Source of the DNA: Kalaharituber pfeilii | Taxonomy: Eukaryota > Ascomycota > Pezizomycetes > Pezizales > Pezizaceae | Assembly (NCBI GenBank): GCA_015179045.1 | Contig: WHUZ01000040.1 | Coordinates: forward strand, 124,001 to 188,000 | DNA length: 64,000 nucleotides | Direction: 5' to 3' | In this document: positions 14,770 through 24,132 of the stretch, piece after piece | Numbering within the stretch: the stretch's first letter is position 1 | Layout of the letters: each line of letters opens with the position of its first letter | Made by a program: the position numbers and the translations under genes | The notes under the pieces: model-generated | What the model was told of the DNA's origin: nothing | Database searches by the model: none | Seen by the model: only the letters and a program-made list of their open reading frames with translations

Positions 14770-15133
14770 TTAGAATTTACTACGGGGAATATGCATGCAA
14801 TAGAAATTTTTTCGTGAAGGGACCAGGTGGAGGAGAATAAAAGGAGGAGAGCTAATGAGAGAGTAAGGGTAGGTCGGAGGGTTGGTGCAACCAGACTAGA
14901 GTAAGGGGCTGACAGATATTCCAAATTGGTCTCATACCACTTTTCAATCTGTATGCACTCAAGTACTTTGGGATTCATCAATCTCACTGAGTTCGCAGCT
15001 TTGTGGTTGCACAGATTAGCGATGCATAGCAACGACCTTTCCTAATTGGTTATTACAAACAATAATTTTCTCGGAGGGAGTGGGAAGCGACTGAAATGAC
15101 ACGGGCTGAAGACCTTATATATACAGTCAGACC

Positions 15134-15215
15134 TAGTCTCGTAACCAGACGCTGACTAAGCGGAGTTTCATGCATGAATGTGCTCCGCTAGGAGCGTCTG
15201 GGAGAAAATCGCCCG
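15134..15215 (+). repeat. Left terminal inverted repeat of the RecQ element
   Basis: This pairs in inverted orientation with 22,690-22,774. The outer 17 bp are identical. Both ends share the internal block GCTAGGAGCGTCTGGGAGA. Between them a hairpin (arms AGCGGAG, 15,159-15,165, and CTCCGCT, 15,183-15,189) occupies the position of a hairpin with different bases at the other end. Confidence 0.8.
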
Positions 15216-15654
15216 CTTTTGATGGGCGTCTCCGCTCTGCCAAGTTGGTTGATTCCGCAACTAGTTTTGGGACTTCCGCAACTAGTCTCGTAACCATCCC
15301 GCAACACAGTTTTTGATGTTTTGAGCTACTCGAAATGAACTTCGGAAATTGTAAACACCCCCACAAGACTAAAACCCTCCATGCCTATGTCCCAAGCACC
15401 TATTCTATGGTATTTAACCTAACTTGTAAAGTTGTACTTCATAATGGCACCAGGAATAATAATAATACAAATACTGCTAGGCCTATAGGATCCAATGCCA
15501 GTGTTGGTCTGCCAAGTTGGTTGATCCCGCAACTGATCTCGGGACTTCTGCAATGTTCAAACTATTCTGTAACATAGTTTTGCAAAACTTAGTTTACACC
15601 TTCAGTGTCTCTTACGCAAGTAACCCTGTCACTGGTGTCACAATATGCAATGAG

Positions 15655-15880
15655 ACAATATGTGCATACTCAATATGCTCAATGTGCTCAATGTGTTCAA
15701 GTACTACATTTCATGTATGCTCAACATGCTCAATATACTTATGTACTCAATATACTCAATATGCCCAATGTCTCATGTGTGTACCCAATATGCTTAAAAT
15801 ACTTAATATGCTCACACATGCTCAAAATTCTCATGTGCATGCCCAATATGCTTACTTTGCTCAATATGCCCAATGGCATG
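15655..15880 (+). repeat. Imperfect short tandem repeat, about 9 bp period
   Basis: Degenerate copies of a TCAATATGC/TCAATGTGC unit run through this stretch in the left arm of the RecQ element. The open frames across it are repeat translations rich in Cys, Ser, Gln and Tyr and are not considered genes. Confidence 0.6.
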
Positions 15881-16299
15881 AAGATGGTCAATTAACTCCA
15901 TTAGGAAACATCATAGCTTGCCTGGATGCTATCCCATGAACCAGCTGGAATAGCCCATAAGGGCAATCAGACTAGGCATAGTAAGTCGCTGATTAGTCTG
16001 CTTCTAGTTTGCATATGATACTATGAGAATTATACCTAATTATATGTTGAAGAATCAGAAATTAACTCATAGACTCAAGAGGTCTGACAAAGAGGTATGA
16101 AGGTCTCTTGTGGAGGCAAGATAAGGCATAACACAACTTGCTCACACATGTTAATAGGTCTCTCTTAATGGTACGAGATACTGCAGAATAAGGTCTATCG
16201 ACATATATGCCAGGGCCCTTTTGACGGCGTAAGAACGGCAGAATAAGTTAAATTTAATAGATATGGCAGGCCTCCCTTTACGGTGCGAGATACTATGGT

Positions 16300-16815
16300 T
16301 GCAATTGCAGTGGACTATGGCTTTCCGGGGGACTGCAAAGGTGGCGGACTATAGCTTTCCGGCAGCAGACTATGGCTTTCCGCAGTGGACTACAGCCAGT
16401 GGACTACAGAGCAGACTTCAGCTTTCTGGCAGCGGACAATAGCTTTCCAGCAGCGGACTATGGCTTCCCGCAGTGGACTACAGCCAGTGGACTACAGCTT
16501 TCCAGCAGCAGACTACAGCTTTCTGGCAGCGGACAATAGCTTTCCGGCAGCGGACTATGGCTTTCCGGCAGCGAACTACAGCTTTCCGGCAGCGAACTAC
16601 AGCTTTCCGGTAGCAGACTATGGCTTTCCGGCAGCGGACTATGGCTTTCCGCAGTGGACTACAGCTTTCCGGCAGCGACTATATGGCAGTTGTAGTAGAC
16701 TACAGCCTTCCGGCAGTGGACTACAGCTTCCCGTAGTAGACTACAGCCAGTGGACTACAGCTTTCCAGCAGCAGACTATGGCTTTCCGGCAGCGGACTAC
16801 AGCTTTCCAAGTGGC
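16300..16815 (+). repeat. 21-bp minisatellite, left array
   Basis: Tandem units with a 21-bp period and core GCTTTCCGGCAG alternate ACTATG/ACTACA before the core, with several shortened units (CCGCAGTGG). The array begins about 1.17 kb inside the left end of the RecQ element. The reverse-complement array lies about 1.11 kb inside the right end. Confidence 0.85.
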
Positions 16816-17053
16816 AAGGTTTGATGCTGAAGGAAGATGGTTCACCGGCACTCGAACAAACTCTGTAGAGATACAGCCAGGAATTGATGCATTCGGTGAA
16901 GGCATCAAAGCATTGAGTAGTGGGATGCCGCTTGCAAATGCAGTGCACAGAAGAAGCCGCGGAACGATGGGGACTCAAGCATCAGATGTTGAGAATAATA
17001 CGGAGGAATTTTATAATGATGGATCTAATTTGTGTGAGGGACTAGTTACATAG
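16816..17053 (+). pseudogene. Open-frame fragment of unknown function inside the RecQ element
   Basis: About 79 codons directly follow the minisatellite and end in a TAG at 17,051-17,053. Composition looks protein-like (ARFDAEGRWFTGTRTNS, then GIKALSSGMPLANAVHRR). It has no start of its own except through the repeat. It might be the C-terminal remainder of a second gene of the element. No family recognised. Confidence 0.3.
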
Positions 17054-17328
17054 ATTTGAACATATGAGGACTGGGCTAACTAGTCTTTAATGTATATGAT
17101 ATTGCAAAGAATAAATTTGAGCTAGGGTATATATTTTGAGAACACGGTAAAGGTTGCTACTGGTTACGAGACTAGGGGTGGTGAGGTGTCTACCCGCATG
17201 CGCTTTTGTAGAACAGTAGTTGGATCAGTGGCAGGCGAACCATCAGCATAGTAATGTTTCCCAAGTGAAGAAGTCAAGCTGGTAGTGGACGAAATTTCCC
17301 TTGTATCCGCGATATTAGCTTCAATCTC

Positions 17329-20004
17329 TTATAGAATGCGGTGTTCCGAGTTCGGTTGGTGTAGCGGTGTATCATTGACGACAGAATCGGAATTAGAATT
17401 GGATAATTCCTGTGGAGTTTGTATTTGTGGTTTTGCAAGCTTTGCTAGTTTTCTCCGCTGAGCGGAAGCACGATTGAGGGCTAGTCGGTACAAGCGCTTC
17501 TCTTCGTTTTTAATATGTTGCTGGCGTGCTTCCTCAATTAATCGATGTCGTTCATTTGGATCAGTAATTTCAGTCAATAATCGTGGGATAAACTCTTTGG
17601 TTGTGGATACAGGCCTGCCAGATTTCCGGCGATATTCTAATACCGGTGGGTTTCCACCTCCATTAGAGGGAATCGGAGTTGATAGAGGAGTATCTTGTGG
17701 ACTATCTCCATTAATATCTAGATCATTGAAGATATTTGGAATTGAGAGAGCTTGTAGATTTGGAGTACTTTGGGAAGTTGCCCATTCCGGTAAACTTTGC
17801 ACATATGGGGTGTGGATTCTTGATTGAGAGTCAACCTCAATTACCACATCGGAGTTTTGTAACCGGAAATCAGAGACAGTGGTCCGTATGATATCAAGCA
17901 AGTTAGATACACAAGGACCTAGTGGTGAGAATGAGAGATGTCGCTCTTTGGTGAGTACCTTTTGAAGACTTGCGGTGTCGTCTATATCTGTACAGAATCT
18001 AGCAATTCTGCTGATATCATCATTTGAAAGATATGAGAGTTCATCGATGAATGAGTTCTCTGGCCCCCCGGTGGCCTTATGCACATATTTACGGAAGGAT
18101 TCCAATACAGCTGTCACTTCGGCTTTTAACGCCTTTGTTACAGGCTTTTTTCTTGTTCTCGAGGGTTCTGGAGGTGGCGGTGTAAGGACCGGGATTATAT
18201 CTCCAATGGTGTCGGAGTAAGACAACCCTGGTGTGAGCCTTTGATGGCAACGGTCGCAACAGCGAGGGTCTTTTCCAAGAGGCTCTGGAAATGTCACATC
18301 GTTAAAGTATTTCATAACAACCTTGCGCCGACATCCAGAGGTATTGATAAACCATAATAGTGCTCGGTCCACCTTTTTAAGAACTTCTTTTGGCGGTCGA
18401 ATTGGAAGGTCTTCTTTACCCAATCCCACAAACTGTGTATCCGCTTCACCCAATGCAGGCTCTACTTCACCTTCCGCTTCTTCATTTATTTCTATTGGAA
18501 CCAAGGCTAGTTCTTGACCTTCACCTGACTAAAGCACTTGCGCATCTTCGCCAGCGGTGACAACTCTACCACCGGAAGCGTCATTGCCAATCTCCGGTAA
18601 CGTTTCCGCGGGGATCGGAGTATGCGGAAGCGGAAGCTCAATCGGAGCCATGCTTTCGGCGATACCCTCATCGAAAAGTTCTATATTATGTAAAATCTCC
18701 ATGACATGAGAGCCATTGTATGGTTGACTGTATAATCCCAAACCAGGGCCCGGCCTGCAACCTTACTGAGGTTGACATCTATCGCAGCATTATAATAGAG
18801 GATCGCAGCACCTTGAATTTCCGGGTCTCGAGCACATCTGCCAGCTCTCTGGATAAATCCAGGCAGGTTCAAATGAGAAGGAATCGTCCACTGGATTACG
18901 ACTTCAATGTCCTCCACGTCTAGTCCCATTCCTGCAGCCTCGGTACACACTAGAACACGAGTATTCTTTTTGCGCTGGATTAGGGAATCCTTGAAATTCA
19001 ACATGGTTGCTTCTCTGCGTTGTTCACTTAATATGGTCGAATAGTCAATTATGACTTCTCTTCCTTGCAATACCGGTGCGAGGCGACGCTCTAGTTGGTC
19101 TACTACACTGCAGACCGTTTGCCGGGAATCAATAAATATCATGGTTTCGCGAATGCATCCGGGGTCAGAGCAGTTCATCGGAATTACAGACTCTAATTCC
19201 TTTCGCAACTTGATGTTCCCGTGTGCAATTGGAATCGCAGTTAAAAAGACATTAGGTCTATCCATTGTATTTTGAATCAATGAAGTGGGGGAGTGAAGGC
19301 TGAGGCCCTTATGTATAAACCTCATTGCACGCCTCGACAATGTGGCAGATAGACAGAGTACGGGGGCCTTGGGAAAAAAGGTACGGACGACTCCAATGTG
19401 CGCGTATGCTGTACGGAATTCCCGCCTGAAGCAGTTGATTAGCCTTGTTTCGGGAATCGTCTTTCCGCCGTGCCAGAAGCCAAAGCCGCTGCGCATTCCG
19501 CCATGCCAGAAGCCAAAGCCGCATGTTGGCTTTGCAGGAATGCCAAAGCCGCTGCGCATTCCGCCATGCAGAAGCCAAAGCCGCATGTTGGCTTGACAGG
19601 AATGCCAAAGCCGCTGCGCATTCCGCCATGCCAGAAGCCAAAGCCGCTGCGCATTCCGCCATGCTGGAAGCCAAAGCCGCATGTTGGCTTGTCAGGAATG
19701 CCAAACCACCGCCATTTCCGCAATCAAACGGAGCTGGGACTTACCAAGTGTAACATAAATGGGCCTCATCAACCACAATACATGTCAACTTTTCCACAAA
19801 TTTGGAACTCTTTGCCCCACGTCGTGCACCTTTGCACTTTATGCCTAACAGCTTTTGAAAGCTCCTATCCCGCGCATTGATAAACTCTGGACCAACCATA
19901 AAATCTGGTGCGACAAAGTTGGATTTGACACTATGGTGAAGCTGTGCATGGCTTATGGAAAGCGATACTGGTGGTGTAAAATCAGCAAGCAAAATCCTAA
20001 ACAT
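17329..20004 (-). pseudogene. RecQ-like superfamily-2 DNA helicase, 5'-truncated and disrupted
   Basis: Read right to left. The exon ending at 19,745 carries motif II (CIVVDEAHLCYTW). A 319-bp intron (19,744-19,426, donor GTAAG, acceptor cttcag) is followed by motif III (VLCLSATLS), motif IV (ETMIFIDSR), motif V (VLVCTEAAGMGLDVEDIE) and motif VI (FIQRAGRCARDP), near 18,830-19,380. A RecQ zinc-binding-type segment (CRRKVVMKYF ... CCDRCH) lies near 18,250-18,320. A long C-terminal extension ends in a basic helix-rich tail. RecQ enzymes unwind DNA 3'-5'. Defects: motif I and everything N-terminal is missing at 20,004, a frame change occurs near 18,740, and an in-frame TAG lies at 18,529-18,531. 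It resembles the RecQ-like helicases that spread in fungal genomes (for example telomere-linked helicases), but here it sits inside a transposon. Confidence 0.8.
19471..19700. repeat. Minisatellite filling the RecQ intron
   Basis: Tandem units of about 33 and 36-37 bp share the core CCAAAGCCGCTGCGCATTCC, with alternate units ending in a GCATGTTGGCTT segment. The array lies wholly within the 19,426-19,744 intron, so the helicase reading frame is not interrupted by it. Open frames crossing it on both strands are translations of the repeat. Confidence 0.8.
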
Positions 20005-20074
20005 TAGCGAATGAGGTATACGTAGAATTTAGAGTACGTTCTGTATATAGCTAGCTACTGTGTAACTTAACTCA

Positions 20075-20222
20075 CACTGCAGCCTGAATGGCCTGGACCG
20101 GCTTGAATGGCCTGAATGGCCTGGACCGGCCTGAATGACCTGAATGGCCTGAATGGCCTGAATGTTTCAGGCCGGCCCAGCCCTAGATTTCTATGGCCCA
20201 GGCCGGCCCGTTGGGAACACTG
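20075..20222. repeat. GGCCTGAATGGCCTG short repeats
   Basis: Repeated copies of a roughly 10-bp unit (GGCCTGAATG) are followed by a GGCCGGCCC/GGGCCGGCC-type inverted pair. A related GGCCTGGGCCGGC ... GGCCCAGGCC pair occurs at 45,530-45,570, and a short piece at 28,640-28,660. It sits where the missing N-terminal exons of the RecQ gene would be expected. Confidence 0.55.
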
Positions 20223-20225
20223 CTT

Positions 20226-20760
20226 AGAATAGATAGATATCCCTATTGATCTCTACTTTCTGTCAATACCTATACCTATAGGCTACTCAAAATATATTCT
20301 CCTATGTGTAGAGTTATATTCTAGAGCATTTTGAACATGCCTTATATTTTTAGAAATATATACAGACTGAATATTAAAATTCACTTCTAGCAGTAAAAAT
20401 ATATGTATGGATATTGGCTTACCACTTGTTCCATATGTATCCAATTATCATGAAACATTCCAGATCTCTTAAATACATACTATAGAAGGTATATGCACTT
20501 GCTCAAGGTCCTCAATAGCCATCTTGCCATTTTACACCTGCATAGAGTTCAGATGCCTAATTGGGCAACTACCACCATAGAGTATCATTCAAAATTTCCA
20601 ATTGGCTAACTGAGGTACAGAAGTTACTTTCCTATACCTCTCCAAGCTGTATGTGCAATTTGGTTATCTTCTATGAAGATTTGGCCTTACACGAGGCTAT
20701 TGTTTTTATTCCGGAAGTGCGCCGGATCCCGGTAATGCGCCGGATCCCGGTCAGTGACGT
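20226..20760 (+). mobile_element. Foldback element, single right arm (fragment)
   Basis: Highly similar to the right arms ending at 41,772 and 44,059. It ends in the same tandem CGGATCCCGG motifs and GTGACGT, followed by TA (20,761-20,762). The left part is missing. It is inserted in, or fused to, the 5' side of the RecQ pseudogene and probably contributed to loss of its N-terminus. Confidence 0.75.
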
Positions 20761-20836
20761 TACTTAATATCTTAACAAGGATTGCGTTGATGCCAAGAAT
20801 TAGAATTTTGGTAGTTGTATTGCCAGAAATGGCACT

Positions 20837-20960
20837 TCATAGAATCCTTGCAAGCGCCAAGCATCCACTTCTGGCTCTATCCCACTCGTACTGGCAGGAC
20901 TTCAGCCATTTCCCTCCTAATCTCACTCTCGCTGGTATTGAATCTGCTCCCGGTATACTT
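20837..20960 (-). pseudogene. Gag-only retroposon fragment
   Basis: The minus strand encodes RVRLGGKWLKSCQYEWDRAR, the conserved C-terminal segment of the retroposon gag protein seen at 14,490, 25,263 and 37,790. No poly(A) tail or target duplication is visible, so this is an internal piece. Confidence 0.6.
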
Positions 20961-21189
20961 TGCTCCATTACAACATTGTATTCTCCGTTCGCTGCTCGTT
21001 CAACAAGTTTTCGATCGTCACGCATGGTGCTTTTTGTCATGAATATAGTAAATGCAGAGAACTACTGTCTGTTAGATTAAAAAGATACTTGACTATAGTC
21101 TTACAACTAGTCTGCTTGATTGGCTGCCGGAATTGTTAGTACTGTTAGTACTGTCAGAAAGCTGTAATCCAATCCAACTGTAGTTTACT

Positions 21190-21665
21190 AGAAAACTATA
21201 ATCTGTGGTCCACTGCCGGAAAACTGTAGTCCACTGCGGAAAGCCATAGTCCACTGCGGAAAGCCATAGTCCGCTGCCGGAAAGCCATAGTCTGCTGCCG
21301 GAGAGCTGTAGTTCGCTGCCGGAAAGCCATAGTCTGTTGCCGGAAAGCTGTAGTCCACTGCGGAAAGCTGTAGTCCACTGCGGAAAGCTGTAGTCCGCTG
21401 CCGGAAAGCTGTAGTCCGCTGCCGGAAAGCTGTTGCCGGAAAGCTGTAGTCCACTGCGGAAAGCTGTAGTCCGCTGCCGGAAAGCTGTAGTCCGCTGCCG
21501 GAAAGCTGTTGCCGGAAAGCTGTAGTCCACTGCGGAAAGCTGTAGTCCGCTGCCGGAAAGCTGTAGTCCACTACCTTTCCAGTCCACTAGAAAGCCATAG
21601 TCTACTACCTTCAAAGTCCACCAGAAAGTCATTGTCCATTGGAAAGCCTCCACTGGAAAGCTGTA
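21190..21665 (-). repeat. 21-bp minisatellite, right array (inverted)
   Basis: This is the reverse complement of the array at 16,300-16,815: units read TGCCGGAAAGCTGTAGTCCGC-like on the plus strand, with the same full and shortened variants. Together with the left array it brackets the RecQ gene symmetrically. Confidence 0.85.
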
Positions 21666-22689
21666 GTCTGTTGTAATGATTTAGACGGAGTGGCTGATTT
21701 TCTCCTAGATGCTCCTAGACTCCTATCATAGTAGAGCATATCCAATATGAAACTCTACTTAGTCAGTGCATAGTTACAAGACTAACTTGACTAGTGATCC
21801 TCACTAGTCCTCTGTATAGCTCATATAGTATTAATCTCATGAGTACATTTATGTGTTATGAGCTCACCGCAACTATAGGTGGAGTGGTCGGTGGATATAC
21901 GCACGCATATGTGACGTAGGCAATATGTAACAGTAAAGGCGTCACAGTCACAAAATGAGTGCTATATAAGCTATGCAGGGGACTAGGGAGCATTGCTAGT
22001 TAAGTATCTTTTTGACCTAGTGGATAGTACCAATAACTCTCTGTATTTACCAGATCTATTACATACGATACCTTTATTGGCTGTCATATATTGCATGTTT
22101 TTTTTTGTTGTTTTTATATCATTACCCACTTGTATGTATTGTATATATGTATATTGTATGTATATCCACCAACCGCCCACCCTACGGTTGTGGTAACCTG
22201 CAATATATAACAGTTCAATAGATTCTATAGTGGTAGCAGACTATAGAAGTAGTAGCGGACTATAATCTATAGTAGCAATAGACTAGTGATGATAGTCTAT
22301 AGAGGTGGCTAGTAACAAGGTAGATTAGAGATGTGGCCTAGTTACACTACCCTCATAGGGTTAAAGATGAGTAGATTTAGAGTACTGTGGCGATGTATAC
22401 ATATGCTGCTACTAGAGTAGGGAGTTGTGAGGAGCATGGGGGGGTTGATGCTGGAAGTGGGCTGTTGCTGAAACGGAGGGGGGAGGTTGTATTCTGTATG
22501 TCCAGGGTGGATGGAGGTTCTGCTCCGATCAATCTACACTGGCAATACAGAAGTTCTGTCTTGTTGAAGAAACTCCTCTACGGCACTCAATTGGATTTGG
22601 TGTCATTGAGTTTGGAGATACGTAAATACAGTTGTGGATGTCGGAATGACCAAGCCGACGACCAATCCACCAGCAAAAGTTGGTGCTAG

Positions 22690-22774
22690 CAATTGCGGGA
22701 GATAATCTCCCAGACGCTCCTAGCGTCGCCACTCCAATTTCATGCGACGCTGACTAAGTCTGGTTACGAGACTA
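22690..22774 (-). repeat. Right terminal inverted repeat of the RecQ element
   Basis: Inverse of 15,134-15,215. Its hairpin arms are AGCGTCG (22,722-22,728) and CGACGCT (22,745-22,751). These differ from the left hairpin in both arms but keep the pairing. The element ends GACTA at 22,774 and is followed by the second AGTCAGACC. Confidence 0.8.
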
Positions 22775-23110
22775 AGTCAGACCTTGCTATAATGAAAACG
22801 TAAAATTTGGCCCTTTGTTTTCACTATAGCAAGGTTTTCAGTATAGAAAATTGTACTAAATTAGTCATGTAGTCTTGGCAGCTAAGTGACCAGGGGAACT
22901 TCGCTACCAGCTAACATCTGTATCGATCTACTAGTAATGGAAATAGCTACATTAAGAAATTAATTCAAATGGGATAGTAGCAGTCGTGATGAATAGAAAT
23001 AGAAATAGAAATGTAAGGAGTAGTAGTAGTAGGAGAAGGATATAAATTAGAAGTAAATCAGTAGTAGATTAAGATTCGATTGCTGGCAGCAAGCGGGTAT
23101 TCATTCATCT

Positions 23111-23620
23111 TTGAATACTAGTGAGTTGGCAAAGCAATCATATGGGCAATATATTGAACACCTACAGACTGGAACCTTTGTTACCATCAATAGTCTGATA
23201 CAGGATAGTTGTCACTCCGGACAGGTTCAAGATTTGGTAGATGAGTATCTATTTCATGATGAGGATGCAACAGATAGCACTATTTCTATAGAGGCTATTA
23301 GTATTCCGGAACTTATAGCAGACATGCAACAAGCACAAGTGGAAGACCTTCACCAGTCTGAATCAAATCCCGAACCCGAGTCTCTATCCCGCCCTCCCAT
23401 TAGCACCTCAGAGGCTATCCAGTCTATCGATTCTCTCATGTATTATATGGAGAGTTTGCCGGTTTCTTCTCTGGACCACACTACTTTTCGTCAGCCACTA
23501 GAACTTTCAGAGCTTGCTTCTACCTTTCAGCAGCTTTCTCTCACCTTAAAGTCATACCAGCAACATACCCGGAAGCAACAGACCCTCACAACCTGGTTCA
23601 AACCAACCTTTAGCACTTAG
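23111..23620 (+). pseudogene. C-terminal remnant of a pogo-like transposase
   Basis: A 169-codon open frame lies between the terminal repeats of the pogo-like element. The DNA-binding and DDE catalytic domains are absent. What remains is an acidic Ser/Thr-rich tail, a helix-forming LELSELASTFQQLSLTLKSY segment and the C-terminal QQTLTTWF. That last motif fits the PCNA-binding consensus Q-x-x-hydrophobic-x-x-aromatic-aromatic. A C-terminal PCNA-binding motif is known in pogo transposase. Identification rests on element context plus this tail. The frame start may be artificial. Confidence 0.6.
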
Positions 23621-24132
23621 CGTTGTTGGCTGGGCTGCTCGGAATTACTGGTACGCAGGAGGCAAGGCAGGAGCAGGGGGTCCCTATGAATTTCATTAGT
23701 GTCTTTTCATTATAGCAAGAACAATTGTATGTAGATAAAAATAACTTCCTCTAGATTTTTTTTTCATTACACTATTTGGTGTGGGTGTGATTTCATTATA
23801 GCAAGGTCAAATTGTATGGGGATGGAAATCCGAGAGCGTGGTATGTTCATTATAGCAACGTTTTCACTATAGCGAGGTTCATTATAGCAAGGTCTGACTG
23901 TATATAGCTGGCACCAGTATGATATCCATATAATATTCCTAAGTATCCTTCTTGTCTCATTGCACGTAGAAGCACTACTCTTTGTCTCTCCAAGAGAGTA
24001 GTGCTAAGAGGTAGCGTAACCGGAGTGCGTTTGCATGGGCACGTAGGAAGGCACCCCTCCCCAATGTGAGTGCTCAAAAATATAACGAGCCAATATCTCC
24101 TGAGTTCGGTAAAAGTGAGCAGCCACACAATT

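Follow-up and report, generated by a model that had tools for sequence, protein, structure and literature searches.

The stretch of DNA analyzed here, referred to as the window (64,000 nucleotides; G000:C296:124001-188000), comes from the genome of the desert truffle Kalaharituber pfeilii (78 Mb in 360 contigs). It contains an element with imperfect terminal inverted repeats that is flanked by two copies of the 9-bp sequence AGTCAGACC, lies within a pogo-like transposon, and encloses the remains of a RecQ-type helicase gene and of a gene for a DUF6589 protein (Table 1). With a probability of about 0.82, this element is a decayed, nonautonomous copy of a multicopy DNA transposon of the AcademH kind, whose fuller copies carry a DUF6589 gene, a convergent RecQ helicase gene, and a third gene.

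The inverted ends of the element can be aligned, with gaps, across 83 bases on the left and 80 on the right. Removal of the insert together with one copy of AGTCAGACC joins the flanks into TATATA-CAGTCAGACCTTGCTATAATGAA, the terminus of the pogo-like element, which is identical to the opposite end at 23 positions as well as in the preceding TATATA. The element inserted once into the pogo-like element, and the order of these insertions in the genome is clear. An earlier sequence-only reading of the window had described the inverted ends, the flanking AGTCAGACC copies, and the restored 23-of-23 terminus, and the realigned ends and joined flanks confirm that this observation was correct. Its claims of a single insertion event and of true mobility are likewise supported.

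A search of the genome with both ends, as proposed in the sequence-only reading, revealed many copies, including two fuller ones with 9-bp duplications that encode both the helicase and DUF6589. The first 201 bp of the element had at least 53 matches and the last 175 bp at least 40; these counts are lower bounds, with 40 candidates scored for each end. When as many as 2 mismatches are allowed, the 27-base terminus is present at 245 sites in the 78-Mb genome, compared to none for the reversed control pattern. Both flanks could be read for 27 elements ranging in size from 78 bp to 10.7 kb. Of these, 18 have exact 9-bp duplications, 4 have duplications with a single mismatch, and 5 have none, whereas flanks taken from different elements (the left flank of one and the right flank of another) agreed in at least 8 of 9 positions in 3 of 702 cases. 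The duplicated words vary from site to site. Thus, other copies with such ends and duplications (22 of 27, identical in 8 or 9 of 9 positions) do exist, and the 9-bp duplication, initially noted for a single element, can be regarded as a trait of the family. Left out of this tally are pairs to which internal occurrences of the end motif gave rise (L017, L018, L076, and L086) and right ends whose left counterpart could not be read, such as the one in C101; L027 and L103 were counted as one element, and L024 was paired with the farther, not the nearest, right end. For C79, C321, C317, C112, C335, and C113, the reading covered the two facing ends, and it is the match between the flanks that supports treating each of them as a single element. 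In the C321 copy, the target duplication, GTTACGAGA, is identical to a portion of the end motif of its own family, which suggests that this copy inserted into another family member.

The two fuller copies, C314:259697-269824 (10,128 bp, duplication CTCGCTACG) and C296:305408-315023 (9,616 bp, duplication GCGGAATAA), share the same layout, with a large gene on the left, a helicase gene facing it, and right-hand frames on the helicase strand. The left gene is a single frame of 978 amino acids in C314 and is represented by frames of 299 and 704 amino acids in C296; in both cases, it matches the Pfam domain DUF6589 (E values of 9.4e-75 and 8.2e-70, respectively). The helicase frames of both copies contain the DEAD and Helicase_C domains. 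When one of the first helicase frames was compared with the sequences of solved structures, 34 of the 37 matches had RecQ family names and the other 3 were named merely “ATP-dependent DNA helicase”; a search with a second helicase exon returned 35 matches, of which one, Prp28, is outside the RecQ family. Matches to the RecQ zinc-binding domain were found in the window piece and in the C314 copy, both slightly below the Pfam cutoff. The scanned frames of the third gene had no Pfam match at E values of ≤0.01. Between C314 and C296, the pieces of all three genes differ at 23 to 34% of replacement sites and at 79 to 89% of synonymous sites, the latter being saturated. This indicates that the DUF6589, helicase, and third genes have all been maintained by selection. 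Within the family of the window copy, such estimates say little about selection: the differences are few, and the frame break in the window copy inflates its values. In the third-gene copy of C341 (L083:2519-3100), the reading frame runs, as judged by eye, into one that resembles a piece of a Ty1/copia-type reverse transcriptase, so that a retroelement seems to have landed in this gene.

The association of the two convergent genes extends to other copies. Genome-wide, DUF6589 matches form 23 clusters and helicase matches form 42; in 14 of the 23 DUF6589 clusters, a convergent helicase cluster is located 0.7 to 2.8 kb away, compared to 0.2 expected from a rough uniform estimate. The helicases of these 14 clusters are about 30 to 95% identical to the window helicase. 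In one more cluster, C304, a downstream frame looks, by eye, like a helicase tail, but it was excluded from this count; the remaining 8 clusters had no helicase within 8 kb among the matches listed. Accordingly, the earlier option that the helicase is captured cargo is not supported. The third gene has matches at 10 loci, 5 of which (C314, C296, C35, C298, and C295) have a helicase match on the same strand 1.3 to 3.7 kb away; those at C298 and C295 are borderline, with E values just under 0.001.

Compared to these copies, the window element retains little coding capacity. No DDE transposase could be seen in it by the sequence-only reading, which is right for this copy, given that only the final 81 residues of the DUF6589 protein remain. 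The same reading considered a RecQ helicase to be the main cargo of the element. A RecQ-type helicase is indeed encoded inside it, but its gene is broken and sits amid minisatellites: the reading frame of the middle part is disrupted near positions 18,705 to 18,750, and most of exon 1 is gone, so that, beyond the fragments listed in Table 1, the first frame, including its ATP-binding motif, is missing. The third gene has no match in the window. This copy therefore shows no visible capacity for self-mobility, and its exotic look is mainly due to the loss of most of the candidate transposase gene. Its left arm (1.4 to 1.7 kb) recurs in copies C298, C146, and C336 with 91 to 93% identity; a transposase-poor subfamily therefore seems to have multiplied, presumably using the proteins of other copies.

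Table 1. Features of the element and its insertion site (window coordinates)
Feature	Position	Strand	Comment
Whole element, decayed copy	15134..22774	+	7,641 bp; full candidate transposase gene gone
Target duplication AGTCAGACC (9 bp), left copy	15125..15133	.	
Target duplication AGTCAGACC (9 bp), right copy	22775..22783	.	
Left terminal inverted repeat, imperfect	15134..15216	+	Alignment of both ends; starts TAGTCTCGTAACCAGAC
Right terminal inverted repeat, imperfect	22695..22774	-	Alignment of both ends
Pogo-like element hosting the insertion	15124..23900	+	~1.13 kb without the insert
DUF6589 gene remnant (transposase-like)	16808..17050	+	Residues 898-978 of the 978-aa C314 protein, 97.5% identical (tblastn of P0001)
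Helicase gene, last frame	17167..18066	-	96.7% identical to copy C314
Helicase gene, middle frame	18121..19460	-	Helicase_C and subthreshold RecQ zinc-binding match
Helicase gene, first-frame remnant	19744..19899	-	Last 52 of 219 residues of the C314 frame
Helicase gene, first-frame scrap, displaced	20927..21040	-	
Terminal motif TAGTCTCGTAACC, perfect internal copy	15283..15295	+	
Terminal motif TAGTCTCGTAACC, perfect internal copy, inverted	17162..17174	-	Separates the two convergent genes

The window copy also contains minisatellite arrays at positions 16,344 to 16,814, 19,463 to 19,724, and 21,200 to 21,606. The first and the third match each other in inverted orientation, with ∼80% identity, and the second occupies the position of an apparent helicase intron of the fuller copies. 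The terminal motif TAGTCTCGTAACC recurs inside the element, at 21,784 in addition to the sites listed in Table 1, and these internal copies sit near gene boundaries. In copy C314, internal TAGTCTCGTAACC motifs are found at element positions 171, 3302, and 7102; in the C296 copy, perfect internal copies were not seen. Such motifs could be additional transposase-binding sites or the remains of nested ends. The pogo-like element contains a frame of 169 amino acids (positions 23,111 to 23,620), for which the Pfam scan returned no match; its C-terminal KQQTLTTWFKP resembles a PCNA-binding motif.

The same gene pair is found with a second, related and much more abundant type of ends. In the DUF6589-helicase copies C2 and C57, assigned from their left ends, the sequence TGTTCTCGTACCCAG is located ∼80 to 105 bases upstream of the first DUF6589 frame, whereas the window family has TAGTCTCGTAACCAG. 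The 15-mer TGTTCTCGTACCCAG, with up to one mismatch, occurs at 1,088 sites in the genome (3 for the control) and has no match in the window. Five facing pairs of TGTTCTCGTACCCAG sites, 4.9 to 6.0 kb apart, were picked by eye among 100 sites listed, and only their ends were read; exact 9-bp duplications flank four of these pairs and are not found in the fifth.

The DUF6589 domain (PF20231) is labeled “unknown function” in the copy of Pfam used here; in this family, it resembles a transposase core. Two observations suggest a DDE transposase: DUF6589 proteins have conserved acidic residues, with D287, D495, and E825 of the C314 protein as the candidate triad, and their predicted core (trimmed, with more alignment rows) weakly resembles the Hermes transposase. 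The full-length protein is predicted poorly (pLDDT of 52), and a Foldseek search with the predicted structure gave no match at E values of ≤0.001. Likewise, a profile built from the DUF6589 alignment had no matches at E values of ≤1 among the sequences of solved structures, and protein searches returned, beyond the query, two more Kalaharituber proteins and one other relative (P0004).

The ends, duplications, copies, gene content, and gene neighborhoods, all directly observed, can be combined into a scheme of transposition. The DUF6589 protein of the fuller copies would most likely serve as the DDE transposase that binds the TAGTCTCGTAACCAGAC ends and cuts the element out. It would then join the element to the target DNA through 9-base staggered cuts, leaving gaps that host repair would turn into the 9-bp duplication. 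In the course of this reaction, DNA is probably opened or remodeled by the helicase. The window copy has lost most of the candidate transposase gene and the third gene; therefore, any movement of this copy as it now stands would have relied in trans on proteins from another copy. A bolder version, which appears unlikely, has DUF6589, the RecQ helicase, and the third protein working together as a conserved machine of three parts, possibly outside Academ; DUF6589 would be its catalytic component, and transposition would require the helicase, which would also contribute to setting the 9-bp stagger.

According to the accessible parts of the respective papers, AcademH is a lineage of the Academ superfamily (Kojima 2020, via PMC10045372 and PMC10799480) that is found in Basidiomycota, Ascomycota, and Mucoromycota (PMC10799480). 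Its members are described as having 9- or 10-bp duplications, as opposed to 3 or 4 bp in AcademX, and this difference has been tied to the encoded helicase and nuclease (PMC10045372). Both traits are present in the window family: the duplications in 22 of 27 elements, with at most one mismatch (and in 4 of 5 pairs of the TGTTCTCGTACCCAG family), and a helicase next to the transposase, represented here by the candidate transposase DUF6589. Because the 9-bp duplications and the helicase fit AcademH, the family is filed as AcademH-like, the comparison being by description. The suggestion of the sequence-only reading that this type of transposon had not been described is not supported, given that the available text of PMC10045372 describes AcademH elements as encoding a helicase and generating duplications of 9 or 10 bp. 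What seemed to be a new transposon thus becomes a decayed copy of an apparently described kind. For this genome, the order of insertions is clear, 9-bp duplications are documented at a series of sites, and fuller copies are available as candidates; further additions are evidence for DUF6589 as the transposase of helicase-bearing elements, a convergent gene pair, and a recurrent third gene.

Among the alternatives, the family could represent a distinct superfamily of three genes, encoding the DUF6589 protein, the RecQ helicase, and the third protein, that is related to Academ but stands outside it. The agreement of the duplication length and the helicase with AcademH, as described in the accessible part of PMC10045372, makes this quite improbable, even though matches to the third gene accompany a helicase on the same strand at 5 of 10 loci (borderline at two) and the literature searched contained no mention of DUF6589.

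Mutator-like elements have ∼9-bp duplications and long inverted ends, and the window family shares both features. The 9-bp duplication had led the sequence-only reading to suggest Mutator-like mobilization. In the corresponding explanation, a Mutator-like element would have captured a RecQ gene and been moved by an unseen MULE transposase. However, the Pfam matches of the long frames in the two fuller copies are DUF6589, encoded by the left gene, and helicase domains, with no MULE domain, and the helicase adjoins DUF6589 repeatedly, so a one-time capture does not account for it; this explanation is highly improbable. Kolobok elements have a TTAA target and 4-bp duplications, whereas the 22 duplications found here are 9 bp long and vary in sequence. 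A KolobokH origin of the family, in which the helicase is a convergent gene, accordingly has very little probability, although KolobokH is described in the available text of PMC9587614 as a fungus-only Kolobok lineage that encodes a RecQ helicase and is in this respect, as a fungal DNA transposon carrying such a helicase, similar to the window family.

Several other known systems can be set aside. The hAT elements, which include Hermes, have 8-bp duplications; the hAT reading was rejected because the duplications of the window family are 9 bp long and the scanned frames of the fuller copies have no hAT match in Pfam. Helitrons, which lack inverted ends and target duplications according to the part of PMC4522978 available, do not fit, as both are present here. 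Fungi also possess repeated subtelomeric RecQ genes (same source and extent), but the repeated RecQ genes described here are enclosed in elements with inverted ends and duplications.
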